From: Microcoleaceae cyanobacterium MO_207.B10
Lineage (GTDB): Bacteria > Cyanobacteriota > Cyanobacteriia > Cyanobacteriales > Microcoleaceae
Direction of reading: 5' to 3'
DNA length: 39,837 nt
NCBI GenBank assembly: GCA_030064835.1
Contig: JASJEE010000005.1
Coordinates: forward strand, 1-39,837
In this document: positions 7,588-33,176 of the stretch, one piece after another
How positions within the stretch are numbered: position 1 is the stretch's first letter
Layout: every line of letters starts with the position of its first letter
Translations under genes and position numbers: made by a program
Notes under the pieces: generated by a model
Database searches by the model: none
What the model saw: only the letters and a program-made list of their open reading frames with translations
What the model was told of the DNA's origin: nothing

Positions 7588-9390
7588 TTAGCATACAGAC
7601 TCTAACGAAACTCCTAACCACCCAACAAAATTTTTCTCTTGTTTTGCTGTAGGATCTTTCACTGGTACAACTTGGTAACGACTGGGACTAGGGTGAGCTA
7701 AAATTACCTGATGAGTAATAAGTTCATCTTGATGAAAAACTGTAACTTCAATAGAGTCACCAGGTTGATAATCTTTGAGGCGATCGCTCAACTTATCTGC
7801 ACTAACCCGAAAACCATCTATTGCCAATAACTCATCTCCCGCATCCAATCCCGCCAACTGAGCTGGCCCTTTTGCTTCCACAAATTTAATAATTTCGTGG
7901 CCATTCTCTGTCACCACATTCATACCCAAATGAGGCCATCTATTATCTTCCCTCTTGAGTCGTAATCCAAAAGGTCTCAAATACTCATCAAAAGGCAATT
8001 CATCCACACCATTAATATATTTATCAAAGAAGTCATCTAAATCTAATTCTGCTACATTTTCAATCACGTTTTGTACTTGTTCGGGAGTAAAGCCGATTTC
8101 TGATTTACCAAACTTATCCCACATTTGACGCATTACATCATCTAGAGAAAGTTTGTTTTCATGTTTTTCCCGGATTAACAAATCCAGCAATAAAGATATT
8201 AATTCTCCTTTTAAGTAATAAGAAATCTGACAGTTATTGCTATTCGCATCCCGACGATAAAGTTTAATCCAAGCATCCCAACTAGACTCACTAACTGGTT
8301 GTACTTTTCGTCCTATTGTTGTTAGTAAAAGCGTAATTTCTTTTCCTAATCCCTGCAAGAAAGTTTTAGCATCATATATACCTGCTCTTAACGGAATTAA
8401 CAAATCATAATAGCTAGTTGTTCCTTCACAAAACCACAGAGAAGGCGTGTAATTTTCCTGTTCATAATTAAATACTTCTAATGCTTTAGGGCGGATACGT
8501 TTAACATTCCAAAGATGAAAAAATTCATGGGCAACTAACTGCATAAAGCGATCGCGCTTCTCCTTATTTTTAAATCCAAATCTCGGATAATTTAAGGTAC
8601 AACTAAATTTATGTTCCAAACCACCAAAACCTTGCCCTGAAATATGTAATATAAACAAATAATTTTCGTATGGTAAACCATCAAAAAGTTCTGCTTCAAC
8701 CTCAATAATTTTCTTGATATCTGGAATCAACTTTTCTGGTTCAACATTACCCTTACCCCAAATAACTAATTGATGCGGTTTTTCCTGTACTTCAAATTGA
8801 TATATTTGATGATTTCCTATTTCAAAAGGGCTATCTACTAAAGTATCAAAATCTTTTGCCTCAAATGTATTTTCTGTACTAGGAATTTTTGGTAGAGGTA
8901 CAGTAACTTGCCAATCAGATTTTGGTGGGATAATCTTGATGTGAATTGGGTATTTCTCACATTCTGGAATATAAAAACACAAAGCTGCCGGATTAAAATA
9001 CCCATGTGTACTGTCTAAATGATTTGTGCGTACTGTTAATTCATTGCCAAATATTCTATATTGAACTGTGACTTCCGAAACTCCTGATGTTTGAATTTGC
9101 CAATGATTTTTACTAAGTTTCTGCCAAGGTAAAAGTCGTTCATTTTCACTATAGGCACAGAAATCTTGCAAATGTTTAGCATATTCTCGGATTAAGTAGG
9201 AACCTGGTGTCCATACAGGCATTTTTAAATCTAGTTTTTCAGACTTTTGTAATGAAGAAGGTAGTTGCTCAAGTCTGATACGCAAACTAACCTCAAACAG
9301 ATGTGATTCTGGATGAGGGATAGATACTTTATATTGAATTGCCGATGTGATAATTGTGGGACTGAGAGAGGCTATTTTAGCTTCAGTCAT
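7588..9390 (-). CDS. M61 family metallopeptidase with PDZ domain
   Basis: This 600-residue protein matches M61 (glycyl aminopeptidase-like) zinc peptidases. The N-terminal ~190 residues form the beta-rich domain. The catalytic domain carries HEFFHLWNVKRIRP (HExxH at about residues 288-292) and the third ligand in WFCEGTTSYYDLL (about 318-330). A C-terminal PDZ domain (about 475-590) includes GPAQLAGLDAGDELLAIDG. Length and domain order are typical of cytosolic bacterial M61 enzymes, and I see no signal peptide. The PDZ domain probably presents substrate C-termini. The gene precedes nothing co-directional within an operon distance; the upstream Crp-family gene is 136 bases away. Confidence 0.93.
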   Translation of the reverse strand: MTEAKIASLSPTIITSAIQYKVSIPHPESHLFEVSLRIRLEQLPSSLQKSEKLDLKMPVWTPGSYLIREYAKHLQDFCAYSENERLLPWQKLSKNHWQIQTSGVSEVTVQYRIFGNELTVRTNHLDSTHGYFNPAALCFYIPECEKYPIHIKIIPPKSDWQVTVPLPKIPSTENTFEAKDFDTLVDSPFEIGNHQIYQFEVQEKPHQLVIWGKGNVEPEKLIPDIKKIIEVEAELFDGLPYENYLFILHISGQGFGGLEHKFSCTLNYPRFGFKNKEKRDRFMQLVAHEFFHLWNVKRIRPKALEVFNYEQENYTPSLWFCEGTTSYYDLLIPLRAGIYDAKTFLQGLGKEITLLLTTIGRKVQPVSESSWDAWIKLYRRDANSNNCQISYYLKGELISLLLDLLIREKHENKLSLDDVMRQMWDKFGKSEIGFTPEQVQNVIENVAELDLDDFFDKYINGVDELPFDEYLRPFGLRLKREDNRWPHLGMNVVTENGHEIIKFVEAKGPAQLAGLDAGDELLAIDGFRVSADKLSDRLKDYQPGDSIEVTVFHQDELITHQVILAHPSPSRYQVVPVKDPTAKQEKNFVGWLGVSLESVC

Positions 9391-13567: not shown

Positions 13568-14296
13568 ATGAACATATACCTATCATTTATAGTTTGTGCA
13601 GGTTTACTCACCTGTCAACTGCCAACATTAACAGCCCAAGCTCTAGTAGCAACTGTACCTAAACCTGAGATTTTAGTAGCTCAAGAAAATGCCCCCGAAA
13701 ATACCAAAAGAAAAACTTCACCTCAGCCCGTAAATAATAGGAATACAGGCTATAGTCGTCGTCAGGCAATCAAATATCGATTTGAATGTAACTCAAACAA
13801 CCAAACAGTTTTAGCTATCTATCAAGCACGACGTAACCGTAGAGGAAACATAGTATCTTCCTGGGAAAAAATTACCGAGCGACCACTAATTCAATGGACA
13901 AAAGAAGGCTCTGCCGAATTTGGGGAGGAATTAACCCCAGAAGACCGTTGTCAGGGTGTCACAGCTAACTTTAACTATCACTTCCTTCGTACCGAAAGTA
14001 GACCCAGACTACCGCCATTAAGTGAGGGAACTGTCAATGGAAGAGCCGTCGTCTGTGCAGCACCAGAAGAAACCTGCAACCAAAATAATGTTCTCTGGAC
14101 TCTGAGAAGCAACAACAAAGATACCAACGGTAAAATTATTAAGCAACTACTGAGCGCACTGCGAGGAGAAGCTAGCAGTCAGTTAATCATGGAAAGTCAA
14201 GATGAAGCGGAAATAGAAATCTCTTCAATTAATATGGAAAATCTGATTGATGCCATTATTGACCAAGAAAGTACCAAGATAGATGCAGAAAACTAA
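13568..14296 (+). CDS. COP23-domain exported protein, paralogue 1
   Basis: A 242-residue protein with an N-terminal signal peptide (hydrophobic 1-25, ending near TLTAQA) and a COP23 domain (about 58-200). COP23 was first described as a circadian-oscillating membrane-associated polypeptide in a unicellular cyanobacterium; its biochemical role is unknown. Hallmarks are YRFECNSNNQTVLAIYQARR, a Trp-rich middle, RPLIQWT, DRCQGVTANFNYHF and VVCAAPEETCNQNN. Four cysteines (in FEC, DRC, VVC and ETC) are conserved with the next gene and could form two disulfides. The acidic C-terminus ends in a NMENLIDAII motif, repeated in the paralogue. It is the first of five co-oriented genes. Confidence 0.85.
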   Translation: MNIYLSFIVCAGLLTCQLPTLTAQALVATVPKPEILVAQENAPENTKRKTSPQPVNNRNTGYSRRQAIKYRFECNSNNQTVLAIYQARRNRRGNIVSSWEKITERPLIQWTKEGSAEFGEELTPEDRCQGVTANFNYHFLRTESRPRLPPLSEGTVNGRAVVCAAPEETCNQNNVLWTLRSNNKDTNGKIIKQLLSALRGEASSQLIMESQDEAEIEISSINMENLIDAIIDQESTKIDAEN

Positions 14297-14388
14297 GTTC
14301 CTGAAAAACACTATAGATGACAGAATATTTGATTCAGAAATTAAGGTTGGTGCCTATTAGATCGAGTAAAAAATTATAGATAAAAACA

Positions 14389-15195
14389 ATGAAAAACCAA
14401 AATATATTGCCAATAACTTGTGTGGCGGCGATGGCTGCTCAAATGCTAATAATTAATACAGAGTTTAGTTTAGCAAAAAGCATTACATCGTCAACTGTAT
14501 TAGCTCAAAATAGTATATCTAATCAGAACAAAAGTAAAAATTCGACTCCTTCGGTCAACCCTAAAAATATACATTACAGTCGCCGTTACGCATATAGATA
14601 TCAATTTGAATGCACGCCAGAAAATCAAACAGTGCTAGTCATATACCAAGCACGACGTAACCGTCAGGGTGAAATTGTAACATCGTGGCAAGAAACAACC
14701 AAGCGACCTCTTGTTCAATGGACAGAAACCGGTTCGTTAGAGTTTGGCGAACGTTACACTCCGGAAGTCCGTTGTCAAGCAGTTACAGATAGATTTAATC
14801 ACCATTTTCTTAGGGGAGGAGGAAGTGCATATCTCCCACCTATGAGTGAAGGAATTTTTAATGGGATGGCTGTAGTTTGTGCTGCCAAAGCTGGAAATTG
14901 TAATTCAGATAATTTGTTGTGGACTCTGAGAAATCAAAATAGAGGCACTAACGGTAAAATTATTATGAATTTGGTAAGTTCTCTCAAAGGTAATGCTAGT
15001 GTGCCGCTAATAATTGAAAGCAATGATTCTGAAAATATAGAAAGTCAAGGGAATGAATGGGTAGAAAAATTGGCAGTTATTGATGGGTTAAAAGCAGCAT
15101 CAGTAAATCAGGAAAAAATGTTGGAAGTGGATATGGAAAACTTAATTGAACAAGTAATAGAAGAGCAAAAAGAATTGGAAAATGTTAAAGAGTAA
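14389..15195 (+). CDS. COP23-domain exported protein, paralogue 2
   Basis: A 268-residue paralogue of the preceding gene, 92 bases downstream. It has a signal peptide (about 1-30), then YSRRYAYRYQFECTPENQTV, QARRNRQGEIVTSWQ, RPLVQWTETGSLEFGE, VRCQAVTDRFNHHFLRG and VVCAAKAGNCNSDNLLWTLR, with the same four cysteines. The C-terminal tail is longer and acidic and contains DMENLIEQVIEEQK, matching the NMENLIDAII tail of paralogue 1. Tandem duplication is the simplest origin. It is followed 38 bases later by the first protease gene, so co-transcription is likely. Confidence 0.85.
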   Translation: MKNQNILPITCVAAMAAQMLIINTEFSLAKSITSSTVLAQNSISNQNKSKNSTPSVNPKNIHYSRRYAYRYQFECTPENQTVLVIYQARRNRQGEIVTSWQETTKRPLVQWTETGSLEFGERYTPEVRCQAVTDRFNHHFLRGGGSAYLPPMSEGIFNGMAVVCAAKAGNCNSDNLLWTLRNQNRGTNGKIIMNLVSSLKGNASVPLIIESNDSENIESQGNEWVEKLAVIDGLKAASVNQEKMLEVDMENLIEQVIEEQKELENVKE

Positions 15196-15233
15196 GATTC
15201 AAAATTCTAACTGTTAAGCCCAATAAAAATGAA

Positions 15234-16085
15234 ATGAAAAATTTGATAACTCTGATGGCAATGAGTCCGATTTTTTGGGGGCTTTACTGTTGCCAGGTAG
15301 CATCAACCACCAACCAAATAAATAATTCTCAGATTCAAACAATTACTAGTTTTAAATCAAACTCTGCTGTAGAAGCGATCGCCAGACCTTTAACCGTGAG
15401 ATTATTAGGAGAAAATATAGCTGGTTCCGGGGTAATTATTTCTAGGGAAGGAAATGATTATTTTGTGGTGACTTGCGCTCATGTAATTGATTCAAATCAA
15501 GATGCAGAATTGACAGTTTTAACTGCAGATGGAGAAGAATATATTGCTAAGACAGATACTCGATTTAATTTTACAGATATAGATTTAGCAGTAGTGAAGT
15601 TTCACAGCAATAATGAATATCCTATAGCGGTGGTTAATTCTAATTTAAACTTAAGTTTAGGAGAACAAGTTTATGTAGCTGGATTTCCTAATTATGATCG
15701 TGAGACTACAAATAGAGGTTCTACTATGGATTTAGGAATTCAACCATATAATTTGACTCAGGGAAAAGTTAGTCATGTACTTAATTTACCTTTAGAAAGA
15801 GGTTATAAAATTGGTATGAGTAATGAAATTGAAATTGGTATGAGTGGCGGACCAGTGTTGAATAAAAAGGGTGAGTTAGTGGGGATTATCGGTAGGGCAA
15901 AATATGCTTTTGGCGGTTTTGATGCTTATCGATTTTCTGATGGTAGTACACCTTCAGAAGAACTTTTAGAAGAATTGATATCTGCTAGTTGGGCAATTCC
16001 TATTTATAAGTTAGATAGACAGGATAAACATTTTAATATCATCAATAAATCAGAAAATAGGAATCTTGGTAAAATTAAATATTAA
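15234..16085 (+). CDS. Exported trypsin-like serine protease 1
   Basis: A 283-residue S1-type (chymotrypsin-fold) protease with an N-terminal export signal (about 1-25). The triad is visible: His83 in VVTCAHV, Asp117 in TDIDLAVV and Ser204 in IGMSGGPV. The oxyanion region GMSGGP is intact, so activity is expected. There is no PDZ domain, unlike DegP/HtrA. It is the shortest of three tandem proteases and lacks the long C-terminal tail of the other two. ATG 15234 is used; the ATG at 15229 is out of frame and stops at once. The gene follows two COP23 genes with a 38-base gap and precedes protease 2 by 21 bases. Confidence 0.88.
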   Translation: MKNLITLMAMSPIFWGLYCCQVASTTNQINNSQIQTITSFKSNSAVEAIARPLTVRLLGENIAGSGVIISREGNDYFVVTCAHVIDSNQDAELTVLTADGEEYIAKTDTRFNFTDIDLAVVKFHSNNEYPIAVVNSNLNLSLGEQVYVAGFPNYDRETTNRGSTMDLGIQPYNLTQGKVSHVLNLPLERGYKIGMSNEIEIGMSGGPVLNKKGELVGIIGRAKYAFGGFDAYRFSDGSTPSEELLEELISASWAIPIYKLDRQDKHFNIINKSENRNLGKIKY

Positions 16086-16106
16086 TCGGAAGTAAGGTAC
16101 AGAATT

Positions 16107-17726
16107 ATGCTAAAAAACAAAAAAATATTAAAGACATTTATTGCGGGAATTGTTATTAGTATGACTAGCAGTGCAACTGCTGAAATTGGAAAATTAACAG
16201 TAGAGGAAATTAACTCTATTGCCAAACAAACAACCGTGTTAATTGCTCCAAGATTAGATGAAGACGAATTAGCCGATCTGTTAGATAGAAAACCAGTAAA
16301 AAGATGGACGGTAGGTTCTGGGGTAATTATTGCTAAAGAAGGTAAAAAATATTATGTTTTGACAGTAACTCATAACTTTAGTCAAGAACAAGTAATAGAT
16401 AATGCACCTTATGGTATTGTCACTAGCGATCGCCAAGTTCATCAAGTTACTGAAATTAAAGATAATCAAGAATGTACAAAGAGTTTTTTAGATGCAATAA
16501 AAAATCAAAAGTTAGAAACACCATTGATAAGATTTGGTTGTTTTGAAAGCCAAGCAATTAATGGATATGACTTAGCAGTAGTTAGTTTTGAAAGTAAAAA
16601 AGACTATCCTATCGCCTCATTAGGAGATACTAGTAAATTACAAGAGGGAGAGCAAGTTTATATTTCTGGCTGGCCAAAGATTGAAGCTGAACCAAAACTC
16701 AAATCTGATGGTACCCCACTATTAGATTCAGAAGGCAAAATAGTGTGTAAAGATCCCGCACCTCAAAGGCAAAGACGTTTGGCATGGGGACCATTAAAAG
16801 CTGCTATTCCTGTCACGGAAAAAGAGAATGGTTATAGTTTATATTATACAGATTATACTCGTCCTGGTATGAGTGGCGGTCCTGTATTTAATAGTAATGG
16901 TGAAGTAGTAGGAATTCACGGTCGAGGTTCTACAAATAAACTTATTTGCGGACAGATGTATCAACCAAAAGAAAATCAATCAAAAGCTAGAAATAACTTG
17001 CCAATAAATTCTAGTAAAACCTCAGAATCTGATAATAACTGGCAACGTTTTGATGGATTTGAATCTCAAGAAAATTTACCTGGGAACCAAGATAAAACCT
17101 TAGAATCTGATAGTAACTGGCAACCTTTTCCAGGATTTGAACCTCAAGAAAAGTCACCTCAAGACCAAAATAAAACCTTGAATGCCGAGAATGAATGGCA
17201 ACCTTTTCCAGGATTTGAAACTGAAGATAATTTACCGAATACTCCAGCTAATACTTTAGAAACTGACAGTAATTATAATAATTATAATGATTCTGATTCT
17301 AAAAAATTGAATTCTAATGAGATATCAACATCAATTTATGAATTAAAGAAAATGTATAGTAGTGCCCAAAATATTGATTACTCTCAACAGTTAATCAAAC
17401 AGATTGGAGTGAATTTATCTTTTAAATTAGAACCTCCTAAACGAAATTTAATTCAGTCAGAAATAACAACAGTTCCTAAAATTAAAACTCCTGGTATAGG
17501 TGGGAAAATAGAAGATGATGGGTTTGATCGAAACAAAAGAAAAGAGGCAGAAGTTGCAGCCAGGGATAATGATGGATTTATCGATCCAAATCAAACAAAA
17601 GAGGGAGGATTTGAAGACCCCAACGATACCATAGACAATATCTATAAACTTTTTAGTTTTGATGTCGAAAACCTGGGTAGGGATCAACCATCTGGTGGAG
17701 ATGGCAGTATCTTGCTAGGAAATTAA
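16107..17726 (+). CDS. Exported trypsin-like serine protease 2 with internal repeats and conserved tail
   Basis: A 539-residue protein. A short signal peptide ends near residue 26 (SSATAEIG). The protease domain (about 35-285) has His89 in VLTVTHNF, Asp155 in NGYDLAVVS and Ser256 in PGMSGGPV, so all three triad residues are present. Residues about 296-388 hold 3-4 copies of a ~26-residue acidic, Trp/Phe-bearing repeat (ESDSNWQPFPGFEPQE). A C-terminal region then matches protease 3: a YxSxQNxDYxQ stretch and a final segment with PNDTIDNIYKLFSFD and RDQPSGGDGSILL. Without the repeat block it would align closely with protease 3. The substrate is unknown. It lies 21 bases after protease 1. Confidence 0.87.
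   Translation: MLKNKKILKTFIAGIVISMTSSATAEIGKLTVEEINSIAKQTTVLIAPRLDEDELADLLDRKPVKRWTVGSGVIIAKEGKKYYVLTVTHNFSQEQVIDNAPYGIVTSDRQVHQVTEIKDNQECTKSFLDAIKNQKLETPLIRFGCFESQAINGYDLAVVSFESKKDYPIASLGDTSKLQEGEQVYISGWPKIEAEPKLKSDGTPLLDSEGKIVCKDPAPQRQRRLAWGPLKAAIPVTEKENGYSLYYTDYTRPGMSGGPVFNSNGEVVGIHGRGSTNKLICGQMYQPKENQSKARNNLPINSSKTSESDNNWQRFDGFESQENLPGNQDKTLESDSNWQPFPGFEPQEKSPQDQNKTLNAENEWQPFPGFETEDNLPNTPANTLETDSNYNNYNDSDSKKLNSNEISTSIYELKKMYSSAQNIDYSQQLIKQIGVNLSFKLEPPKRNLIQSEITTVPKIKTPGIGGKIEDDGFDRNKRKEAEVAARDNDGFIDPNQTKEGGFEDPNDTIDNIYKLFSFDVENLGRDQPSGGDGSILLGN
16992..17271 (+). repeat. In-gene tandem repeat encoding ~26-residue units
   Basis: Three to four degenerate copies of a ~78-base unit sit inside protease 2. 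Each encodes an N-L-P / K-T-L-E-S-D / NWQPFPGFE pattern. The last copy is decayed (NTLETDSNYNNY). The block is absent from protease 3, which marks it as an insertion or expansion. Confidence 0.75.
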
Positions 17727-17786
17727 CACATCAGAAAATACAGAGTGCATTAAAGGAGAAATATCTAGTAGAGACAATCGATAAAA

Positions 17787-19061
17787 ATGCTATATGCTTT
17801 TCTAAAAAAAATTTCCAAATATTCTATTTTTCTTGGTGGAATTTTCCTCAGCTTTCTACCAATAAATCCCGTTTTGGCTAAACTATCACCAGAAGAAATT
17901 AATTCTATAGCCAGACAAACAACAGTTTTAATTGCTCCAGCTTTAACTCCTGAATTACGAGAAGATTTAGAAGAAAATCGCAAAAACCCGCTAATAAAAT
18001 CAGGTATTTGGAATCCAGGTTCAGGAGTAATTATTGCTAAAAATGGAAACAAATATTATGTGCTAACTGTAGCCCATAATTTTCTGCAAAGACACCTTGA
18101 TAATAAAAAATATTGGCAACAGTTAGGAGGCATTCCCTACTATGGAATTAGAACTTATGATGGCAAAGTTCATATCGTAAAAGATGTCAATGATGGCAGA
18201 GGATGCCCCCTAAAAGGCAACCCAAAACTAGCAGTTTTAGTAAGATTTGGCTGTCGCGATCGCTTTATTATGAACACAGATATAGTAGATTATACCATCG
18301 GTACAGACCAAATTAGAGGCATAGATTTAGCGATCGTCACATTTGAAAGCAAAAAAAATTATACAGTTGCTCCCCTTGGAGACGCTAGTCAGGTTAAACC
18401 TGGGGAGAGAGTATATATTTCCGGATGGCCTGACCCAGAAAGAGAAAAAGACCCGCAAACAGGTAGATGTCGCGAAAAAGTAGCTCGCAGACAAAGGCGT
18501 TTAGCGTGGGGTCCGGTAATAGAAAAAATGAATCCCGACCCGCAACATCAAGGCTATAGTATTTTTTACACTGATGAAACTGCTGCCGGGATGAGTGGGG
18601 GGCCGGTATTTGATAGCAATGGTCGTGTAGTTGGCAGTCATGGGTTAGGCAGTCAGAATAAACCTCAGTGTGGCGGTAATATTGAGGCCGGTAGTGGATC
18701 TGAGTCTGCTGCTAATACTAATGTTTCTAGTGGGAATAATCTTGATTTTAATAAGTTGCAAAAACAATATAGTAGCGGTCAAAATGTCGATTATTTTCAG
18801 AAGTTAATGGCAGAATTGAACTTCAGTTTGGCTTTTAGACGGGAGTTGCCACCACCGGAAGTTATTAAAGCTGGTATCAGTCAAATGAACAAGCAGAAAA
18901 TTGCTAGCACTAGTGGCAAAGTTGAATTTGATGCTAGGGAAGATGTGTTTAACGACCCCAATGATGTTGTGGATGATATCTATAAATTGTATACGTTTGA
19001 GTTAGAAAATCTAATCAGAGATGAACCTTCTGGGGGTACAGGGAGTTTATTATTGGATTAA
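17787..19061 (+). CDS. Exported trypsin-like serine protease 3 with conserved tail
   Basis: A 424-residue paralogue of protease 2. It has a signal peptide (about 1-31, ending NPVLA), His97 in VLTVAHNF, Asp180 in RGIDLAIVT and Ser270 in AAGMSGGPV. After a Ser/Gly linker, the C-terminal part repeats the protease 2 pattern: KQYSSGQNVDYFQKL, then NDPNDVVDDIYKLYTFELEN and RDEPSGGTGSLLLD at the very end. The strong tail conservation suggests a functional element such as a localisation or partner-binding motif; that is inference. AAGGAG lies ~30 bases before the ATG, too far for a normal ribosome site. It is the last gene of the five-gene cluster. Confidence 0.87.
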   Translation: MLYAFLKKISKYSIFLGGIFLSFLPINPVLAKLSPEEINSIARQTTVLIAPALTPELREDLEENRKNPLIKSGIWNPGSGVIIAKNGNKYYVLTVAHNFLQRHLDNKKYWQQLGGIPYYGIRTYDGKVHIVKDVNDGRGCPLKGNPKLAVLVRFGCRDRFIMNTDIVDYTIGTDQIRGIDLAIVTFESKKNYTVAPLGDASQVKPGERVYISGWPDPEREKDPQTGRCREKVARRQRRLAWGPVIEKMNPDPQHQGYSIFYTDETAAGMSGGPVFDSNGRVVGSHGLGSQNKPQCGGNIEAGSGSESAANTNVSSGNNLDFNKLQKQYSSGQNVDYFQKLMAELNFSLAFRRELPPPEVIKAGISQMNKQKIASTSGKVEFDAREDVFNDPNDVVDDIYKLYTFELENLIRDEPSGGTGSLLLD

Positions 19062-19251: not shown

Positions 19252-19707
19252 TTAATTTAAGTTGCGATCGCTTAATTTTTCACGAACGTCCATTAAAATT
19301 AATCCTAATTTATTTTTACCTGTGCCATCTTTGCCACAACCCCAGTAATAGTCACTTGGTGAATTCTCGACAATTAACTCATCACCTGTTGACAGCAAAA
19401 TTTCCCGAATATCGGCATGAGTTTCAAATTTCTTGAAAACACCCCTTTCCATAATTTCATCTTTGACTTTTTCCCAATCTCGTCGCAGTGGATATTTTCG
19501 ACTGCGCCCCATTTTAGCTGCTTCCTTTGGAGTTTTTACTTCCCGAATTTTCTCAAACCAATAGGGTTCTGTGGTAACAAACTTTTGAGCTTGAAAATAA
19601 TGTTCGTTCGTCACCCACCAAAATTCATCAAGTTCAAAACCATATCGGGAAAAGTTGGAGAAGCAACCATAAGTTTTTGTACGAACACCGTAAAAATAAA
19701 TAGGCAT
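19252..19707 (-). CDS. NADAR/YbiA-family protein (N-glycosidase fold)
   Basis: A 151-residue protein of the NADAR (YbiA, DUF1768) family. E. coli YbiA removes reactive early riboflavin-pathway intermediates as an N-glycosidase, and other NADAR proteins act on ADP-ribosylated targets. Motifs are YGCFSNFSRYGFELD (about 13-27), WVTNEHYFQAQKF (about 31-43) and, near the C-terminus, YYWGCGKDGTGKNKLGLILM. Length (~150) is normal and the fold looks complete. It converges on the protease cluster, and nothing suggests an operon. The specific substrate cannot be told from sequence. Confidence 0.88.
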   Translation of the reverse strand: MPIYFYGVRTKTYGCFSNFSRYGFELDEFWWVTNEHYFQAQKFVTTEPYWFEKIREVKTPKEAAKMGRSRKYPLRRDWEKVKDEIMERGVFKKFETHADIREILLSTGDELIVENSPSDYYWGCGKDGTGKNKLGLILMDVREKLSDRNLN

Positions 19708-22901: not shown

Positions 22902-25900
22902 TTAAATTAATTCTAGAACCAGTACATCAGAGTTGAGACTAACCTTTCCATTTGAGTCTTTCTGAACTGCCACAATGTAGTTGAGGCCAGTCTGAGACTC
23001 AACACCTGCTTCCACAGTGGTATTAGTCTTAGTCAAAGTTACAGGAATATCAACAGTACCATCTGCACCAATAGTACCAGTCAGTTCATTAACTCCGATG
23101 GCCGTATTAGCTTCAAATGGGTCGATATCAAAGCCACCATCCTCAGTGTACAATGCCGACTCTAGTACCAGTAGGGAAATTTCCTCACCAGGATTACCAG
23201 TAACTCGTATGGTCTGAGAAGCATCAGAAACCTGAGCTTTCAGATCAGCTATACCCACCGCTGCAATTTCAGGTGCACTAGGTAAGTCAGCTTCCACTAT
23301 TGCTTGAGAACCAGTATCACTGTTTGGTATCCGATAAGTTTCAGCTCCATAAACACTACCATCACTAAATTCAGCAATTATTTGAGTTCCAGTTAACTCT
23401 AGACCAGAGACACTAGCCGAATCAGCAGGTCCAGGTCCTGCCGTACCACGGGTGCTACCAGGATCATTATCCACGGAGAATGAGAAGGTCTCACCAGGGT
23501 CAAAGTCGTTGAGGATAATCTCAATAGCATCAAAACCACCATCCCTTGGTTTTAGGAACTGATGAGATACAACTTGCAGTCCTGTATCAGCATCAACAGT
23601 AAAGTTTTTACTTTGTATATCACCAGCAGTTCCATCGGGGTCAAAGAACATATCTGGGAACATACCTGTACGCAAGTCAATGACTACGCGATTGAGTTCT
23701 TGACCAAAAAGGGAGTTGTTTGTAATCTCGAATGAACCCGCTTTGGCAGTGCTACTGCTATTAGGCTCAATCTTAAACAGCGCCTGAGCTTCTGTATTGT
23801 GCGTAGAAGCTAATGCCACGGTAAATGGAGCTTCTGTCGAGAACCCAGCAGTGTCAGTAGCTTTAACTATGACATCAGCAATACCAGACACACCGTCAGC
23901 ATAATCTAGAGTTAGCTCACCTGTAGTTTGATTAATAGTTGGAGTTGTAGCAAACAAGCTGGAATTGGTAGTAGAAACCTCATAAGTCATCTGCTGATCA
24001 GTATCTTCGACATCATCAAATACCTCAAATACATTTATGACAGTATTGGGAGCACTTTCTGGCAGAACCATGTTCTCAATTCCACTGGTTGTTGGTACAT
24101 TGTTCGGTACAAAACCACTTGCTGTCAGTGGTAAGAAAGCATCTGTAATTGTAGAACTTTCACCACCACTAGTAATTACTACATCCAGTAGCTCACCTGT
24201 TGGAGAAGTAAACTCAGGGAAGAAACCTTCAATCCGGTTACCTGATACCCGTGTAATCTGTGCTTCTTGTCCACCAATAGTCACAGTTGTGTCATTAATA
24301 TTGCCAGAGAAGTTAGCACCACCAATAGTAAACGGATTACCACCTATTGCAGGAGCTCGCCATGGGAAAATATCGTAAGCAAGCACCTCACCAATATCAG
24401 CACCATCTATTGGTGTTGAAACTGTGAGATAGTCATTACCAAAATCAATACCTAAGATTGTGCCACCAGGTCCTTGAGTCACATCTAGACTCGAAGATAA
24501 GTTAGTAAACTCTTCTAACTCCTCAACAGCAGTTCCATCCGGGGATAGAGAAATATTATAGAGCTGATCATTCCATTTTTGTGCGAGTAAGTTACCACGC
24601 ATTCCACTATTGAAAGTCGTTGCCCGATATTCAACAATTCCATTAGTAGAAGAATCTAAATGAGTTAATGGAGCAGTATATACTCCTGGGATTGATGCTT
24701 CACCCACACCCCCATAGTAAACATTTTGGCGAGTGTCAGTTAATCCTCGATTACGATTAGGACTACCATAATATTCTCCCTCAACAATCAAATTCAGCTC
24801 ATCAGGAGCAGTTACTCCATCTGCTTGAGTATCAGGTCCTGTTGATTCTACTCCAAAAGCACCATTAGGACCATTGTCAGTCGCGTATATATTTCCTTGT
24901 GTCGTGTATACCAAATCTAATCCATTGCGGATTCCAGAAGCAAAGACGGAGACATCTACTGGTTGTTTAACCTCTACGATATCCCCAAATACCTGGTCGT
25001 TATTGATTTCACCTGTGGCAATTTCTTGATAGTCAATTACCCCTTGGAAACCAGGTTTCAAGTCAGCTTTCAAAATAGCAGCCGAGAAAGGAGATTCTGG
25101 TAAGTCCCCGATTGGATCAGCAATAACACCTGCATTTGTGTTGGAACCAGTTAAAATTAACAAATCACCATTTTCATCGAACTCTAGACCGTTAACAGCG
25201 TGGTCATGGTTGGAGACTGGTAAACCTGTAACTACTGGCTTAACTTCTGTAAAATCTGGTCCTTCGAGTACCACTACCTCTCCGGAGTAAGCAGAAGCTT
25301 CACCTTCAGGGATAGCTCCACCACCGTTACCATATATTTCACTAATGGATAAGTAGACTCTGACTGGATCATCTTCAGAGTTATATTCATCGAATGGGTT
25401 AAATCCGATTCCTAGAATAGATTTAGTAAATGCTGTCGGACCAACTACGGGTAGTTTGCCTATAGTTTTGACTACTTCCGAATCAACTACATTGTAATTA
25501 TCGTCGAATGTTAAGATTTGCAGTTGACCAAACATAGTACCTACATATAGTCGCCCATCAGGTCCCCACTCAGCAACTGTGAGGTTGTTAATATCATAAT
25601 TTGTTTGCGTTGCTTGATCCTGAATAATAGAGGTGTCAAATTCAGGGGGTATAGTGGCATCATAGATGAAGTATTCTGTTTGGCTTCCATTGGGAGTTTC
25701 AATGGTTAACGGTACAATATTACCTTCTGGTCCTGCAGGAACATCAACCATAATTTTGTTCCCAAGGATGCTAACATCCACACTACTCTCTGGTAGAGCT
25801 ACGCCATCCCAGGTAACTGTAACTGGTTGGTTAGCATCTGTAGAGAAGAATCCTACCCCTTCTAAAGTAATTGTTTCACCAACAAATGATGCGGGTTGTG

Positions 25901-28900
25901 GATTAGCTTGAGTATTCGCATTGTTAATGAACGGTGCTAAATTAGTTTGATCGTTGGTGACATTCTCTAAGGATACATAAGCTCCATCATCGATAGAGTA
26001 TTTAACTGTTCCTGGTAGGTCAGCTAATGTATCGATGGCGAAGCGGGTTTCTATCTGGTAGGTTACTCCTTCTATCAAGTCAATATTTTCTTGGACTGAC
26101 TCGAAGATACCATCTGCATCGGTATCAATAGAGAATTGATTAGCAAATCCCCCTTGTGCCAAGAAATCATAACTACCAGTAGTAGGTGCGGTGAAATTAT
26201 TAGTCATCTTCACCACAGTGTCACCACTGAAAGGTGAACCACCTATGGTACTTCCACTATTGCCAGCATTAATTTCTAGTGGTGTTACCATGTAGTCAAG
26301 ATCATTTCGCTCTGTAATCACTTCCATATACTCTGGAGAAGCTGGCAAATTAGCCATGAGGGTAGATAAGTCAGCACCGTTAGTAGGATAGTATTCTGTC
26401 AGTATTCCTGAAGCATTATCAATGGATTCAATGTAAACATACGCATAACCAGGCAAAGTTACATCTGGTCTAATAGGAGAAGTAGCATCTTGTATTGTTA
26501 ATTCAACTTTATTTTCCCCTAGAGATAGGTCAGTCTGAATATTTGGCAGATTAGCAATATACTGACCATCAACTGTCCATACCCAGTCTGTTAAAGAACG
26601 ACCCGGTTCGTGAGTGTGAGACTCATCACCTCCCAGGTTTACCGAGACAGAACCATCGCCATCATAGTCAATCAGGTAACCTCCCTGATCATCCATTACC
26701 ACATGCAAGTATATATCGGCAGGTCCCCATTGTCGACCGCCTTTTCCAGGTGGAGTTACCTCGATCGCATTAACGATAGCAGCACCAGAACTGCTAGTAA
26801 ACTCTAGATTCAAAAAGCCATCGAATACAAGAGCTGCTTCTGCATCCTTAAATGTCTTACTTAAGGCTGTATCTGCTCCCACCTCAGCTGTAATGTCAAG
26901 GTCTGTAAATAGTGATTGCCCTTCAGCAGTAGCGCTAAATTGTCGCTGCAAAATAGTATCATAGAAGGTTTCGGCAAAGTGTAAAGTCACCTCATACAGA
27001 CCATCCTCTGGTACAGGAATAGCGTAACTAAAGGTATCTCCTACACGATGGCTGTTGTAGATTTCAGCATCGACGATAGGATTAGTGATGGTGGCAGTAT
27101 AAGTGTCAGCAACTCCTGTATCATTGAAGTCTCGGTCTGCTTCCCAAGGGAACTCTCCATTAACAGCAACTCCACCAGTATTGATATAGATTGTATCTGG
27201 GTTGTACTTAGGGCTAACTGTGACTGTAAAGGTTTCCTCTGTAGTCAGATTTGTCGTGTCTGTGGCACTAAGTGTCAGCTCTACAGCTTCAAAATTACTA
27301 ATGTCTGCGTAACTTAAAGTTAGGTCTCCAGTAGCAGTATCAATATTTGGAGTAACTACAGCAGAATTACTGTTAGAGACAATCTCATATGTTAGTTCAT
27401 TTTCATTATCAGTATCTTCAAATGTTTCGATCAGACTGATAGTTGTTGCTTCTTCACCGTTAACATAAAAATCGTCTATTGGGGTTGCTACAGTAGGTGG
27501 ATTGTAAATACTGGGGTTAACAACGACTTTAAATGTGGTCTCTACAGATAAACCATTCGGGTCTGTAGCAGTTACCTTAATATCTGAACCACCTACATTA
27601 ACTGCATTGTTATAGTCAATAATCAGTTCGCCTGTAGTTTGATTGATTTCTACTGAAGTGAAGAGATTATTAGGATTAGGTTCTACTGCTTCCACAGAGT
27701 AAGTTAATTCATCACCATCTGCATCAGCAAAAACATTTGCTAGAGAAATAATTGTGTTAGCAGCATCAGATGTTTCTACCGTAACGTCCGTAATAACTGT
27801 CTCAACTGTTGGTCTTTGTCCCAACGGTAAAATCTCAATGGCAGAAATCATCGCATTATTTTTCTGAGCAGCGAAATTGAGGGTTAAATTGCCATCGGTG
27901 ACATCAACTTCCGCCGTCTTACTCAGTGCAGTATTCTTACCAACCTCAGCAAAAACATCTAGGTCATCTATTATTAGTTTGTCTTCAGCGCTGACATCAA
28001 ATACCCGTACATCAACATCATTCGCGAAATTCTCAGAAAACTCTAAATTGACTTGGTAAACTCCATTTTCAAGATCAGGTGCTGTGAAATCGAAGTTTTG
28101 ATCATAACGATAACTCTGATACAACTTATCATTTTCTGTTCCAGCGATCGCTATGGAGGAATTACTAGTTAGAGAAGGACTAAAGTATTTATCTGCTTCC
28201 CATGGTTTATTTAATGTATCGGTGTAGGTGTTACCTGCTGCATTAACTAGAATTGTACCTGGGGGAGTATATTGGTTGACTATAACCTCGAATTCATCTT
28301 CTACAAACAGATTATCTGTGTCTGTAGCTGTCACCGTAACGTTAGCAGTTCCTTCAAGTTCTGGCCCGTATACTAGGTTGAGTTCTCCTGCAGTTATAGT
28401 AGGAGTAACGAGATTAGGACTGTCAGTGGTGACATCGTATGTGAAGTTGTCTCCATTTTGAGTGTCTTCAAATACAGGTTGCAGGTTGAAGACTGTATCT
28501 TGTTTACCGTCAGTGAGGACATCTTCAATAGGTTGTACAACTTTAGGTATATCGTTATCTGTCAGGTTGACACTAACATTAAATGTCGTTGATACTTCTA
28601 ACCCATCAGTATCTGTGGCAGTGACTTTAATATCTGAAGTTCCCTTTGCAACTGCATCGTTATAGTCAATAATTAACTGCCCTTGCGCGTCTACAGTGAC
28701 TGAGGTAAATAGATTTGCCGGATTAGGATTTAGCTGTTCAACTACATAAGTTAAATTGTCACCATCTTGTACATCATCAAAAACAGGGGCCAGGTCAATA
28801 ACTTCGTTAGGTGCAGTGGAACTATTTACAACAACGTCTGGAATGGATGTTACTGTCGGTATGTTGCCTTTGGGTACTATAGATATTGCCGATATCATTG

Positions 28901-31900
28901 CGTTGTTAACGCTAGCGGAGAAGTCTATATCTAAATCTTCATCTCCATCCTTAATATCAACAATAAATTTCTCATCTAGGGCAATATGCTTACCACCAGC
29001 TTGAGTGAATACATCCAAGTCGTCGAGAACTACCTCTCCTTCTAAAGCTACATCAAATACCCGACTATCTGGTGTGTCAAAGAAGTTTTCTGAAAACCTT
29101 AATGTGACTTCGTAAGCACCATTATCTAGAGGGACATCAGCAGAAAACGTTTGGCCCCATCGATACTGTTGATATATAAGATCTTCTTCGGTGCCATCAA
29201 TTGGGAAGCTAGTTTTAGCTGTATTCGTATCTTCTGTGATGGGGAAGTTAATGTCAGCTTGCCATAGTTGACTAGCACTGTCACGATAGCTAGAGCCTCC
29301 ACTATTAATTAGAGTTGCTCCTTCTATAATCCCTGGATTTACTGTAACGATGAATGGGATCTCAACTGACAATCCATCAATGTCTGTTGCTGTTACTAAT
29401 ATTTCGGCTTCACCCTGAGTCTCTGGCCCATTATAAGCTAAGGTTAATATTCCGTTGGCATCAATGGCAGGAGATACTAGATTAGTATTACTACTGGTGA
29501 CATCGTATGTGAGAACTGTTCCGTCTGGGTCTTGAACTGCTGCTGACACATCTATGGTTGTAACAGTGCTGCCGTTGGCGAACACATCCTCAATTGGTTC
29601 TATTACTTCAGGTGCTTGCGGATTCCCTACAGTTACTGTGAATGTATCCTCGACAAAAAGTTCGTCCGCATCTGTTGCCCGAACTGTAATGTCTGAAAGT
29701 CCAATATTAACGTTGGGATTATAGTCTATACTTAAAATTCCGTTGGTATCTATATCTACTGAGTTCAGCAGCTCTGAGGGGTTGGGATTGTTATCTACTA
29801 TGGTATAGATTAATCCCGTATCTGGTGTTTCGGTATCTTCAAACACTAGGTTCAGGTCAATTTCTGTATTCCCGGCTGCACCATCAGCAACTTCTACATC
29901 TGCAATAGCCGTGGTAACAGTTGGCTTGTCGCCTACATTCTTGAACTTGATACCGGAAACCATGGCATTATTAGCAATGGCATCAAAGTCTATATCTAGA
30001 TTGCCATCACTAACATTGACGAAAAACTTCTCATTTAAGGCAGCATTCTTAGCACCTGTTTCCGCAAATACATCCAGGTTTTCAATGACTGTATCTCCCT
30101 CTGCGACTACATCAAATATGCGTTTGTTAGTTTCAGTAAAGAATGTTTCGGCAAACAGTAACTCTACTTCGTAGTTACCGTTTTCTACATCGAAATCATA
30201 CTCCATGAGGCTGCCCCATCGGTAATTTTGATATAAGCCATCTTCTTCAGTACCACTGATAGCTTGACTTGTACTTCCAGTGTTAGTGTTACCTCCGATG
30301 GTTAAGTTACTGTCGGTTTGCCACAATTGATTAACACTGTCTAAGTAGTCGGGGCCTCCTGCATTATAAAAAGTTGCGTTTTCTTCGATGGCAGCATTAA
30401 CTGTGACGTTGAATGTTGTCTCAACCGAGAGTCCATCTGTATCTGTAGCTGTAACTGTAACTTCTGCTGTACCTTCAACATCTGGGTTGTATGCTAGGGT
30501 TAATTCTCTTTGGTTAATGCTTGGTGTGAGTAGAGTGGAGTTGCTGGTAGTCACCTGGTATGTCAGGTCATCTAGGTCTTGAGCATCTTCAAATACTGCT
30601 AACAGATCGATAACTGTATCGGTGCTACCATTGGCAAATACATCATTGATAGCATTTGTCACTTCTGGTGCTTCGGGAGTACCGACTGTGACTGTGAAAG
30701 TATCTGTCACAGATAATCCGGCTTCATCCATTGCCTCTACTGTAATTTCTGCACTTCCGACATTGACGGCTGAGTTATAGTTAATGACTAACTCACCTTC
30801 GGGATTTATGCTAACAGAGCTTAATAGGTCACTGGGGTTGGAGTTGTTATCGACTATCTCGTAGCTTAAGTCTGCATCTGGAGTTTCTTGGTCTTGGAAA
30901 GTATTGTAGAGGTTGATTACTGTATTCTCTGCTGCACCATCAGTTACTGCCACATCCTCAATGGGATTAGCCACTGTTGGTTTATTTCCTAGAGGCACTA
31001 ATTTAATCCCTGAAACCATAGCGTTGTTGTTACTAGCAACAAAGTCTAGGTTGAGTATGTCATCACTAACTTCAGTTACAACTGTCTCATTCCAGGCAAC
31101 ATTTTTACCAGCTTTGGCAAATACATCTAGATTGTCTATTGCTAGCTCACCTTCTGCGGAAATATCAAATACCCGTTGACCTTCACTGTTAGCCCAGGTT
31201 TCGGCAAATAGTAACTGTACTTCATAAGCTCCATTGGCTACAGGAATTTCATAGGAGAACTGAGAACCCCATCTATATTTCTGATAGAGTTGGTCGTTGG
31301 TGGTGCCACTGATTGCTGATGAAGTTGACCCTTGGTTTGTAGTTCCTACGGAAAACTGATCTGCTTGCCATACTTCATTATTGCTAATGTCGGTATACTC
31401 GCTACCACCTGAGTTAATTCTGACTTCGGCAGCTATTTCATCGTCTAAGACATTGAAAATGACATCATCTACTACCAAACCATCATAGGTAGTGTCATTG
31501 CTGATAACTGTATGGCTAATGTTGCTAGTATGATTTCCTTCTGCTACTGTATCATCTGTGGCTGTGACTGTTACTGTCTGTGGTGTATCCCAGTTGCTAG
31601 TGGTGAAGGTTACAGTTTGTTGATCTAGGGTTGTTTCTCCATCGGTAGTCAGGTCTATTGTTACATTGGCTGTCGGCTTACTATTGAGGACTATTTCATA
31701 GGTATCGGTAAGTCCGGCTTCTGTAACGTTATTGTTACCCTCAGTTTTGGTGAATGTGACTCCGGCTGAGTCATTGTCTGTAATATTCACATTCACATCA
31801 GGGAAACTTAATATTTGATAATCAGGATCAAATGTCTGCCCAATACTATGGCTAATAGTGCCACTATGGTTTCCTTCTGCTTCGCTGTCATCTACGGCAT

Positions 31901-33176
31901 TTACTACTACTTCTTGTGGTTCGTCCCAGTTATCTTGTGTGAAGGTTAGGGTGGTTTTGTCTGTCTCTAAATCAGGGCCTGTGCTGAGGTTGATATTGAC
32001 ATCATCACCGGGCTGAGTATCGAGAACTACTGTATAGGTGTCTATATCTCCTGCTTCGGTAACATCTGTGCTGCTATCTGTTTCAGCTATTGTAATTCCT
32101 GGTGTGGGTGAGGCTGCTACTACAATGTCGTCAATATTTAGCTCTTGAGTTAGGACGTAGTTACCATCCTCTCCGACCCCTGTGCTAACACTTTCTCCCT
32201 CAAATCTGACAAGTGTTACTCTATCCCAATCTGTACCTAAAGTTTCTGTCTGATATGTAACGAGTGCATCAGCCGGGCCAAAAGTTTTCTGTACTGTCCC
32301 TCCACCTGCTTTTGTTCCTGTGATGGTAAATCCTTGATTCACAGCATCTTGTTCAAACCACTCCCCTGCACTACGGTCAAAGCCTTCAAAGTCGAATGCT
32401 TCTCCATCTTCTCTAGCAATAGTAAAGTTGATAGTTTCACCATTCAGGTTGCCATTATGTTGAGTCAAGAATGGAGCAGGATCCATTGATGGCATTGCCA
32501 TCATCATGTGGAAGTGGGGTGCAGAACCTCCAGCGTCTGTGGCATCAAATACAAATGTTGTGCCCGCAAGCTCTCCACTTGTGGGTTCTGCAAATACTTT
32601 TATGGGCCTGTCATTCTGTATCTGACTGGTATAAGTGCCACTGCTAAAGTCAATGGTGCTGGCGAAAACTCCTTGATGAGTTTCCATTGCCTTATTACTC
32701 AGCAGGGAACTGGCTTCTATTTTTCCTGTACTATACTCTAGAACCCAATCTCCTCCCTGGGTACTGTTACCTGTTAAGTCATCTGAAGCGGCTATATCTG
32801 CACCTGTTAGTTGACTTAGTTGTTGAACAAATGCTTCTCCTGTAGGACTTTGAGCTACATTACATGAATATAAAAGAATATCTGCATCTGGTGTGAGGTA
32901 ATTAGCCCACTGTTGTATTTGGAATTCATAGGTGTCTAGATTGCCCTGATTTAATTGGGTTGTACCTAATTGCAGACTACCTTCTGCACCGTGGGATAGT
33001 ATTTGAATACTGGAAATCTCACTGTAGTTGGCTAGTGTTTGGTTGATTTGTTGGATGCCATCTTGTTGGGAGTCTAATACGACTACTTCTGTTCCTGGTT
33101 GAACGTCTGTGACTAGATCCTTGTACCCGATGATGTCATCTGTGATAAATACTATTCCGATTCCGCTATTATCCAT
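22902..33176 (-). CDS. Giant 3424-residue DUF4347/malectin/propeller extracellular-type protein
   Basis: Domains in order: DUF4347 (about 1-165; QILSHGAEGSLQLG, DILLYSCNVA); a beta-rich unit (about 172-355); two ~110-residue Calx-beta-like repeats (about 356-579; EGNHSGTISH, EGNHTSNISH); and five malectin-type carbohydrate-binding domains starting near 583, 932, 1286, 1638 and 1995. Each of the first four malectins is followed by two cadherin/Ig-like domains (DVFANGSTDTVIDL, TVTATDTDGLSVE). A PA14-like segment (about 2255-2415), an IPT/TIG domain, a glucose/sorbosone-dehydrogenase-like propeller (about 2510-2925; VSNHDHAVNGLEFDENGDLL), a second IPT/TIG, another cadherin-like domain and a ~300-residue C-terminus follow. 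No classical signal peptide and no RTX repeats are seen. I infer a secreted or surface glycan-binding protein. The ORF is uninterrupted for 10.3 kb. Confidence 0.9.
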   Translation of the reverse strand: MDNSGIGIVFITDDIIGYKDLVTDVQPGTEVVVLDSQQDGIQQINQTLANYSEISSIQILSHGAEGSLQLGTTQLNQGNLDTYEFQIQQWANYLTPDADILLYSCNVAQSPTGEAFVQQLSQLTGADIAASDDLTGNSTQGGDWVLEYSTGKIEASSLLSNKAMETHQGVFASTIDFSSGTYTSQIQNDRPIKVFAEPTSGELAGTTFVFDATDAGGSAPHFHMMMAMPSMDPAPFLTQHNGNLNGETINFTIAREDGEAFDFEGFDRSAGEWFEQDAVNQGFTITGTKAGGGTVQKTFGPADALVTYQTETLGTDWDRVTLVRFEGESVSTGVGEDGNYVLTQELNIDDIVVAASPTPGITIAETDSSTDVTEAGDIDTYTVVLDTQPGDDVNINLSTGPDLETDKTTLTFTQDNWDEPQEVVVNAVDDSEAEGNHSGTISHSIGQTFDPDYQILSFPDVNVNITDNDSAGVTFTKTEGNNNVTEAGLTDTYEIVLNSKPTANVTIDLTTDGETTLDQQTVTFTTSNWDTPQTVTVTATDDTVAEGNHTSNISHTVISNDTTYDGLVVDDVIFNVLDDEIAAEVRINSGGSEYTDISNNEVWQADQFSVGTTNQGSTSSAISGTTNDQLYQKYRWGSQFSYEIPVANGAYEVQLLFAETWANSEGQRVFDISAEGELAIDNLDVFAKAGKNVAWNETVVTEVSDDILNLDFVASNNNAMVSGIKLVPLGNKPTVANPIEDVAVTDGAAENTVINLYNTFQDQETPDADLSYEIVDNNSNPSDLLSSVSINPEGELVINYNSAVNVGSAEITVEAMDEAGLSVTDTFTVTVGTPEAPEVTNAINDVFANGSTDTVIDLLAVFEDAQDLDDLTYQVTTSNSTLLTPSINQRELTLAYNPDVEGTAEVTVTATDTDGLSVETTFNVTVNAAIEENATFYNAGGPDYLDSVNQLWQTDSNLTIGGNTNTGSTSQAISGTEEDGLYQNYRWGSLMEYDFDVENGNYEVELLFAETFFTETNKRIFDVVAEGDTVIENLDVFAETGAKNAALNEKFFVNVSDGNLDIDFDAIANNAMVSGIKFKNVGDKPTVTTAIADVEVADGAAGNTEIDLNLVFEDTETPDTGLIYTIVDNNPNPSELLNSVDIDTNGILSIDYNPNVNIGLSDITVRATDADELFVEDTFTVTVGNPQAPEVIEPIEDVFANGSTVTTIDVSAAVQDPDGTVLTYDVTSSNTNLVSPAIDANGILTLAYNGPETQGEAEILVTATDIDGLSVEIPFIVTVNPGIIEGATLINSGGSSYRDSASQLWQADINFPITEDTNTAKTSFPIDGTEEDLIYQQYRWGQTFSADVPLDNGAYEVTLRFSENFFDTPDSRVFDVALEGEVVLDDLDVFTQAGGKHIALDEKFIVDIKDGDEDLDIDFSASVNNAMISAISIVPKGNIPTVTSIPDVVVNSSTAPNEVIDLAPVFDDVQDGDNLTYVVEQLNPNPANLFTSVTVDAQGQLIIDYNDAVAKGTSDIKVTATDTDGLEVSTTFNVSVNLTDNDIPKVVQPIEDVLTDGKQDTVFNLQPVFEDTQNGDNFTYDVTTDSPNLVTPTITAGELNLVYGPELEGTANVTVTATDTDNLFVEDEFEVIVNQYTPPGTILVNAAGNTYTDTLNKPWEADKYFSPSLTSNSSIAIAGTENDKLYQSYRYDQNFDFTAPDLENGVYQVNLEFSENFANDVDVRVFDVSAEDKLIIDDLDVFAEVGKNTALSKTAEVDVTDGNLTLNFAAQKNNAMISAIEILPLGQRPTVETVITDVTVETSDAANTIISLANVFADADGDELTYSVEAVEPNPNNLFTSVEINQTTGELIIDYNNAVNVGGSDIKVTATDPNGLSVETTFKVVVNPSIYNPPTVATPIDDFYVNGEEATTISLIETFEDTDNENELTYEIVSNSNSAVVTPNIDTATGDLTLSYADISNFEAVELTLSATDTTNLTTEETFTVTVSPKYNPDTIYINTGGVAVNGEFPWEADRDFNDTGVADTYTATITNPIVDAEIYNSHRVGDTFSYAIPVPEDGLYEVTLHFAETFYDTILQRQFSATAEGQSLFTDLDITAEVGADTALSKTFKDAEAALVFDGFLNLEFTSSSGAAIVNAIEVTPPGKGGRQWGPADIYLHVVMDDQGGYLIDYDGDGSVSVNLGGDESHTHEPGRSLTDWVWTVDGQYIANLPNIQTDLSLGENKVELTIQDATSPIRPDVTLPGYAYVYIESIDNASGILTEYYPTNGADLSTLMANLPASPEYMEVITERNDLDYMVTPLEINAGNSGSTIGGSPFSGDTVVKMTNNFTAPTTGSYDFLAQGGFANQFSIDTDADGIFESVQENIDLIEGVTYQIETRFAIDTLADLPGTVKYSIDDGAYVSLENVTNDQTNLAPFINNANTQANPQPASFVGETITLEGVGFFSTDANQPVTVTWDGVALPESSVDVSILGNKIMVDVPAGPEGNIVPLTIETPNGSQTEYFIYDATIPPEFDTSIIQDQATQTNYDINNLTVAEWGPDGRLYVGTMFGQLQILTFDDNYNVVDSEVVKTIGKLPVVGPTAFTKSILGIGFNPFDEYNSEDDPVRVYLSISEIYGNGGGAIPEGEASAYSGEVVVLEGPDFTEVKPVVTGLPVSNHDHAVNGLEFDENGDLLILTGSNTNAGVIADPIGDLPESPFSAAILKADLKPGFQGVIDYQEIATGEINNDQVFGDIVEVKQPVDVSVFASGIRNGLDLVYTTQGNIYATDNGPNGAFGVESTGPDTQADGVTAPDELNLIVEGEYYGSPNRNRGLTDTRQNVYYGGVGEASIPGVYTAPLTHLDSSTNGIVEYRATTFNSGMRGNLLAQKWNDQLYNISLSPDGTAVEELEEFTNLSSSLDVTQGPGGTILGIDFGNDYLTVSTPIDGADIGEVLAYDIFPWRAPAIGGNPFTIGGANFSGNINDTTVTIGGQEAQITRVSGNRIEGFFPEFTSPTGELLDVVITSGGESSTITDAFLPLTASGFVPNNVPTTSGIENMVLPESAPNTVINVFEVFDDVEDTDQQMTYEVSTTNSSLFATTPTINQTTGELTLDYADGVSGIADVIVKATDTAGFSTEAPFTVALASTHNTEAQALFKIEPNSSSTAKAGSFEITNNSLFGQELNRVVIDLRTGMFPDMFFDPDGTAGDIQSKNFTVDADTGLQVVSHQFLKPRDGGFDAIEIILNDFDPGETFSFSVDNDPGSTRGTAGPGPADSASVSGLELTGTQIIAEFSDGSVYGAETYRIPNSDTGSQAIVEADLPSAPEIAAVGIADLKAQVSDASQTIRVTGNPGEEISLLVLESALYTEDGGFDIDPFEANTAIGVNELTGTIGADGTVDIPVTLTKTNTTVEAGVESQTGLNYIVAVQKDSNGKVSLNSDVLVLELI
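26740..31430 (-). repeat. Five-fold ~1.06-kb supra-repeat (malectin plus two cadherin-like domains)
   Basis: Malectin domain starts recur every 349-357 residues. Each carries an N(S/A)(G/A)G opening, a Y..YRWG or Y..YR.D/G core, LFAE/FSE(N/T)F, RVFDV, LDVFA and a NAM(V/I)S block. Two cadherin/Ig-like domains follow each of the first four. The fifth unit keeps only the malectin domain. The copies have diverged, so the duplication is old. Confidence 0.8.

Follow-up and report, generated by a model that had tools for sequence, protein, structure and literature searches.

Background

COP23 owes its name to the daily rhythm that it shows in Synechococcus RF-1 (Planta 199:520-527, as cited in PMC6315102), and a daily oscillation of its transcript, synthesis and abundance is described in PMC11131595, where its function is stated to be unknown. 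The protein has also been called a membrane protein and considered to be restricted to nitrogen fixers (PMC6315102). In Arthrospira platensis in contact with polyethylene particles 21 genes were reported as changed, and two serine protease genes (GDL46_RS07455 and RS07460) and a COP23 gene (RS07465), whose adjacency we read from the consecutive locus tags, were all down by about 2 units (PMC13114239). In the literature on COP23 and cyanobacteria covered by our search, which lies mostly outside subscription journals, we found no discussion of a protease partner in the accessible texts, and the linkage of COP23 with proteases is likely to be new to the literature.

The two COP23 proteins described here (C1 and C2) belong to the same Pfam family as the COP23 already described and have the four cysteines and the exported type of N-terminus, but differ in being linked to proteases. 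These proteases (S1, S2 and S3) are in turn similar to those of the HtrA/Deg group (DegP, DegQ, HhoA) in having a trypsin-like domain, the motifs of the catalytic triad and a predicted export.

Organisation of the gene cluster

The window, that is, the whole stretch of 39,837 nucleotides of DNA from Microcoleaceae cyanobacterium MO_207.B10 that was analysed, contains two COP23 paralogues followed by three genes for trypsin-like proteases (Table 1). Successive genes are separated by 92, 38, 21 and 60 bp, and no terminator-like sites were found on the + strand between them. The preliminary description had reported five co-oriented genes, 21-92 bases apart, all with export signals and with intact serine proteases among them. 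The open reading frames and the Pfam matches bear out the arrangement, all five matches exceeding the gathering scores (the curated cut-off of PF14218 is 27 bits). The export of all five proteins is predicted from the N-terminal hydrophobic stretch that a plain hydropathy scan gave for each of them, and the catalytic His, Asp and Ser motifs are intact in S1 (H83, D117, S204), S2 (H89, D155, S256) and S3 (H97, D180, S270).

Table 1. Coordinates, in the window, of the genes and COP23 domains of the cluster
Feature	Position	Strand	Pfam match
C1, COP23 paralogue, 242 aa	13568..14296	+	PF14218, E 2.9e-20, 72.9 bits
C1 COP23 domain	about 13835-14248	+	
C2, COP23 paralogue, 268 aa	14389..15195	+	PF14218, E 4.3e-17, 62.6 bits
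C2 COP23 domain	about 14659-15033	+	
S1, trypsin-like protease, 283 aa	15234..16085	+	PF13365 Trypsin_2, E 1.2e-23
S2, trypsin-like protease, 539 aa	16107..17726	+	PF13365 Trypsin_2, E 3.7e-17
S3, trypsin-like protease, 424 aa	17787..19061	+	PF13365 Trypsin_2, E 3.6e-17

S2 has a long repetitive tail that ends in a conserved C-terminal segment, common to S3. A C-terminal motif common to COP23 and S2/S3 was considered and rejected, since a profile of the S2/S3 tail retrieves no COP23.

Three genes on the - strand of the window lie around the cluster. A NADAR-domain gene is placed immediately past it (19252-19707), an M61 glycyl aminopeptidase with a PDZ domain is encoded about 4 kb away (7588-9390), and a protein of 3424 aa (22902-33176) contains DUF4347, repeated malectin domains, TIG and a GSDH-like stretch.

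Conservation of the cluster in relatives

The gene order C2-S1-S2-S3 is kept in Okeania-type relatives (L176-L179). L182 also has this order, with a single COP23. C2 adjoins S1 in L176-L181, the arrangement of L181 being C2-S1-S2. In one genome (G392) C1-C2 are on one contig and relatives of S1-S3 on another. The products of C2, S1, S2 and S3 share 63-79% identity with their closer relatives, with a dN/dS of about 0.17-0.35; for S3, the identity to the L176 orthologue is 79% and the dN/dS about 0.17. For C1 the value is about 0.28 against its one close intact homologue. These low values indicate that the genes of the cluster are under purifying selection and are maintained.

Relatives of C1 are present at L175 and L182, and in the four Okeania-type loci (L176-L179) C2 and the proteases are complete but only fragments of C1 are left. 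This decay suggests that the COP23 duplication is local and dispensable, so that the duplicated COP23, which had been put forward as part of the arrangement, is not essential to it.

Linkage of COP23 and proteases in cyanobacteria

COP23 is present in 121 of the 386 genomes sampled across the phylum. Regions around the best COP23 match of about 80 genomes, and then around further paralogues and relatives, were scanned with one profile for the COP23 domain and one for the trypsin domain alone. In this sample, which favours high-scoring matches and includes related genomes and whose percentages are biased as estimates, a co-oriented trypsin ORF starts at most 500 bp downstream of 87 of the 156 COP23 ORFs of cyanobacterial regions. 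The background, taken from stretches with no COP23 within 4 kb, amounts to 11 protease starts in 898 kb (about 0.01 per kb), which gives a same-strand expectation for such a stretch of about 0.004 per gene. For another 12 of the 156 the co-oriented trypsin ORF begins farther off but still within 1.5 kb downstream, and seven are fusions with a trypsin domain; only one has a protease less than 500 bp away on the other strand. The effect far exceeds what the sampling bias could explain.

The association is reciprocal, S1 being of the protease type that is usually found after COP23. COP23 was found in 28 of the 30 best S1-type protease loci in the phylum, and in 68 of the 80 named S1-type protease loci of a second collection, which was gathered with the protease alignment. 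When whole genomes were counted by hand (protease E < 1e-30), 89 had both genes, 32 only COP23, five only the S1-type protease and 260 neither, the 386 genomes being phylogenetically non-independent. Across 97 loci the distances among COP23 domains and among proteases are also correlated (Mantel r 0.63, against at most 0.10 in 999 shuffles), with COP23 subclades matching particular protease architectures; linkage alone can produce such a correlation, and both it and the co-occurrence are due in part to linkage and common ancestry. The preliminary description had taken the pairing as a guilt-by-association lead to the function of COP23 and had proposed a neighbourhood survey as one test of it. 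The survey clearly refutes the alternative that the pairing does not recur, and the lead is strengthened by natural fusions.

A linked pair also exists in Planktothrix rubescens (L259), which to our knowledge does not fix nitrogen, and this argues against a restriction of COP23 to nitrogen fixers.

Tandems of two or three protease genes are common at COP23 loci, a trypsin-TPR protein being a frequent second protease downstream of COP23, and would be expected if S1, S2 and S3 formed a proteolytic cascade to which COP23 is incidental. However, at many loci COP23 is accompanied by just one protease, and the constant partner is COP23 and not a second protease. Moreover, an unsystematic look at the proteases identified no zymogen-like propeptide or activation site. 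We consider such a cascade very improbable.

Other arrangements were observed as well. Protease and COP23 genes are convergent and about 1 kb apart at L246, L248, L249, L250, L251, L255 and L036, an arrangement shared by Okeania, Trichodesmium, Lyngbya and the genome from which the window comes. At L039 (6640-8622) a protein with trypsin, TPR and type IV pilin-like G/H (Pilin_GH) parts is encoded between COP23 genes.

The COP23 domain

The four cysteines of COP23, noted as conserved from the window alone, are 99-100% conserved in an alignment of 157 domains, which also revealed an invariant tryptophan and an R-C pair; in C2 the conserved positions (97-100% over the same domains) are C75, W111, R128, C129, C164 and C171. 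We infer that the cysteines form disulfides, and the contexts in which COP23 was examined fit a predicted extracytoplasmic location.

The AF2 model of C2 has a core with pLDDT over 90 and predicts three strands, a helix, three strands and a helix (bbb-a-bbb-a). In the model of a trypsin-COP23 fusion from a relative both domains were modelled (mean pLDDT 80.8, pTM 0.60), and the COP23 part has the same predicted order of secondary structure. No solved structure related to COP23 by sequence was found, and a search of the PDB by fold gave at best a Foldseek E of 0.29 and a VIA Z of 2.7, which is not proof of a new fold.

In the tree of the 157 domains, which is built on few columns and leaves many forks unresolved, 22 long COP23 proteins without a nearby protease form one clade (SH-aLRT 100). 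Members of this stand-alone clade include those of L088, L093, L100-L102, L105, L106, L108-L110, L112-L114 and others. Another 12 protease-free COP23 proteins, mostly of one family, group together (94), and the genes in the rest of the tree are mostly linked to proteases. The long class is also found in genomes without an S1-type protease. These protease-free groups indicate that COP23 has a role independent of the linkage.

Fusion proteins

COP23 is joined to trypsin domains in several ways. There are trypsin-COP23 fusions at L186, L187 and L189, a second fusion at L187 with the order trypsin-COP23-COP23, a trypsin-beta-helix-COP23 fusion (L188) and a trypsin-TPR-COP23 fusion (L233), and at L236 the order is reversed (COP23-trypsin). 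This variable domain order argues for repeated fusion over a single event. An ORF at L058 (6027-7103) first taken for a trypsin-COP23 fusion was rejected, as it consists of TPR and COP23 without trypsin.

Two further proteins (L115:5183-8149 and L190:7396-10362) are composed of an AAA_35 ATPase part, one transmembrane segment, a long coiled region, a trypsin domain and COP23. Their trypsin domain has LTAYDV in place of the LTxxHV found elsewhere and VNLAV in place of DLA, and with its His and Asp motifs lost it is probably inactive. The AAA_35-trypsin-COP23 protein looks like a pseudoprotease receptor.

COP23 is also joined to right-handed beta-helix domains of the DUF1565/NosD-like type (L183, L184, L185 and L188, of which L183, L184 and L188 were checked with Pfam), among them cases with no protease, and double COP23 proteins occur. 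These, together with the fusions to TPR and trypsin, could be explained if COP23 anchored various enzymes, proteases included, to the envelope or sheath by a general affinity for surfaces or glycans. Such an anchor seems improbable to us, because COP23 is overwhelmingly associated with proteases of the trypsin type. The fold search of the PDB returned no carbohydrate-binding fold, although COP23 matched nothing there significantly.

The fusions also bear on the proposal, made in the preliminary description, that the genes form a cascade or protease-inhibitor or protease-substrate pairs, for which we found no support. COP23 could serve as a dedicated inhibitor or as an intramolecular chaperone, holding the exported protease in an inactive state up to its arrival at the place of action: COP23 is small, has four conserved cysteines and a predicted export, its gene is mostly directly upstream of that of the protease, and the fusions could represent inhibitor-protease precursors. 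However, COP23 persists in the two AAA_35 proteins on trypsin domains without the His and Asp motifs, on beta-helices without a protease and in genomes without an S1-type protease, all of which disfavour an inhibitor, and in the fusions it stands on either side of the protease, unlike a propeptide. No inhibitor-like match was obtained with Foldseek in the PDB, but neither was a significant match of any other kind. An inhibitor is therefore, in our opinion, unlikely.

If COP23 were instead a substrate which the proteases mature or turn over, this might set its reported daily oscillation (PMC11131595; Planta 199:520, cited in PMC6315102), and the co-expression with proteases in Arthrospira (PMC13114239) would be in agreement. 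The fusions found in several lineages disfavour this role, since they would put the enzyme and its substrate in one chain, and the clade of lone COP23 proteins, some of them in genomes without an S1-type protease, is without such a partner. We regard a substrate role as rather improbable. Cascade, inhibitor and substrate are all a poor fit to a domain that is found in protease-free clades and is fused to beta-helices and to catalytically dead trypsin domains.

Relation to HtrA/Deg and other proteases

The best solved relative of S1 by sequence is HhoA (5b6l, E 5e-8), and other HtrA-type proteases were also matched. The protease part of the model of the relative's trypsin-COP23 fusion is likewise predicted to be most similar to DegQ/DegP (Foldseek E 3e-13), with matches to HtrA too. 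However, no PDZ domain was found in S1-S3 with Pfam at E 0.1, and their scores against the NCBIfam Do/HhoA models are 17-50 bits, the cut-offs being above 400. Unlike in HtrA/Deg proteases, the place of PDZ is occupied by COP23 in most of the fusions. S2 and S3 also differ from the cyanobacterial trypsin-TPR proteins, having no TPR match and, at the C terminus, their own conserved segment.

A distant likeness to trypsin-like defence effectors (LmuA, RT-Protease XI) comes through the protease domain only. A defence system was considered and rejected, as the similarity found by PADLOC is limited to that domain, the proteins are predicted to be exported and there are no defence partner genes.

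Possible function of COP23

COP23 and PDZ-free HtrA-like proteases constitute a conserved genetic, sometimes fused, unit. Given their adjacency or fusion in dozens of cyanobacterial genomes, COP23 is probably not an orphan clock protein but a partner domain of trypsin-like proteases. We would give an even chance to COP23 being an extracytoplasmic recognition or regulatory partner of HtrA-like proteases, acting in trans or fused to them, and prefer such a partner to a dedicated inhibitor or a cascade. The cluster would be one member of a widespread exported module of cyanobacteria in which COP23 is made together with at least one PDZ-free HtrA-like protease. Outside the cytoplasm COP23 would be stabilised by disulfides and serve its protease as a recognition or regulatory domain, which may bind the protease, a substrate or a ligand at the surface. 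It would thereby play the part that PDZ has in HtrA/Deg, in trans when encoded in the operon and in cis in the fusions; this comparison with PDZ comes from domain position only. We infer both the physical contact between COP23 and the protease and the recognition or regulatory role.

More tentatively, COP23 could be a so far unrecognised extracytoplasmic sensor or recognition domain that replaces PDZ in a large group of cyanobacterial HtrA-like proteases, whether encoded in their operon or fused to them. In the extreme case it would cap the membrane-spanning AAA_35 protein with its motif-less trypsin domain and so make it a pseudoprotease receptor.

The tie of COP23 to exported proteases, together with the natural fusions, provides a concrete and testable function for a family known for its daily rhythm. 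It also suggests that cyanobacteria carry many PDZ-free HtrA-like proteases with an accessory domain of their own, and perhaps also a pseudoprotease receptor of a new kind.
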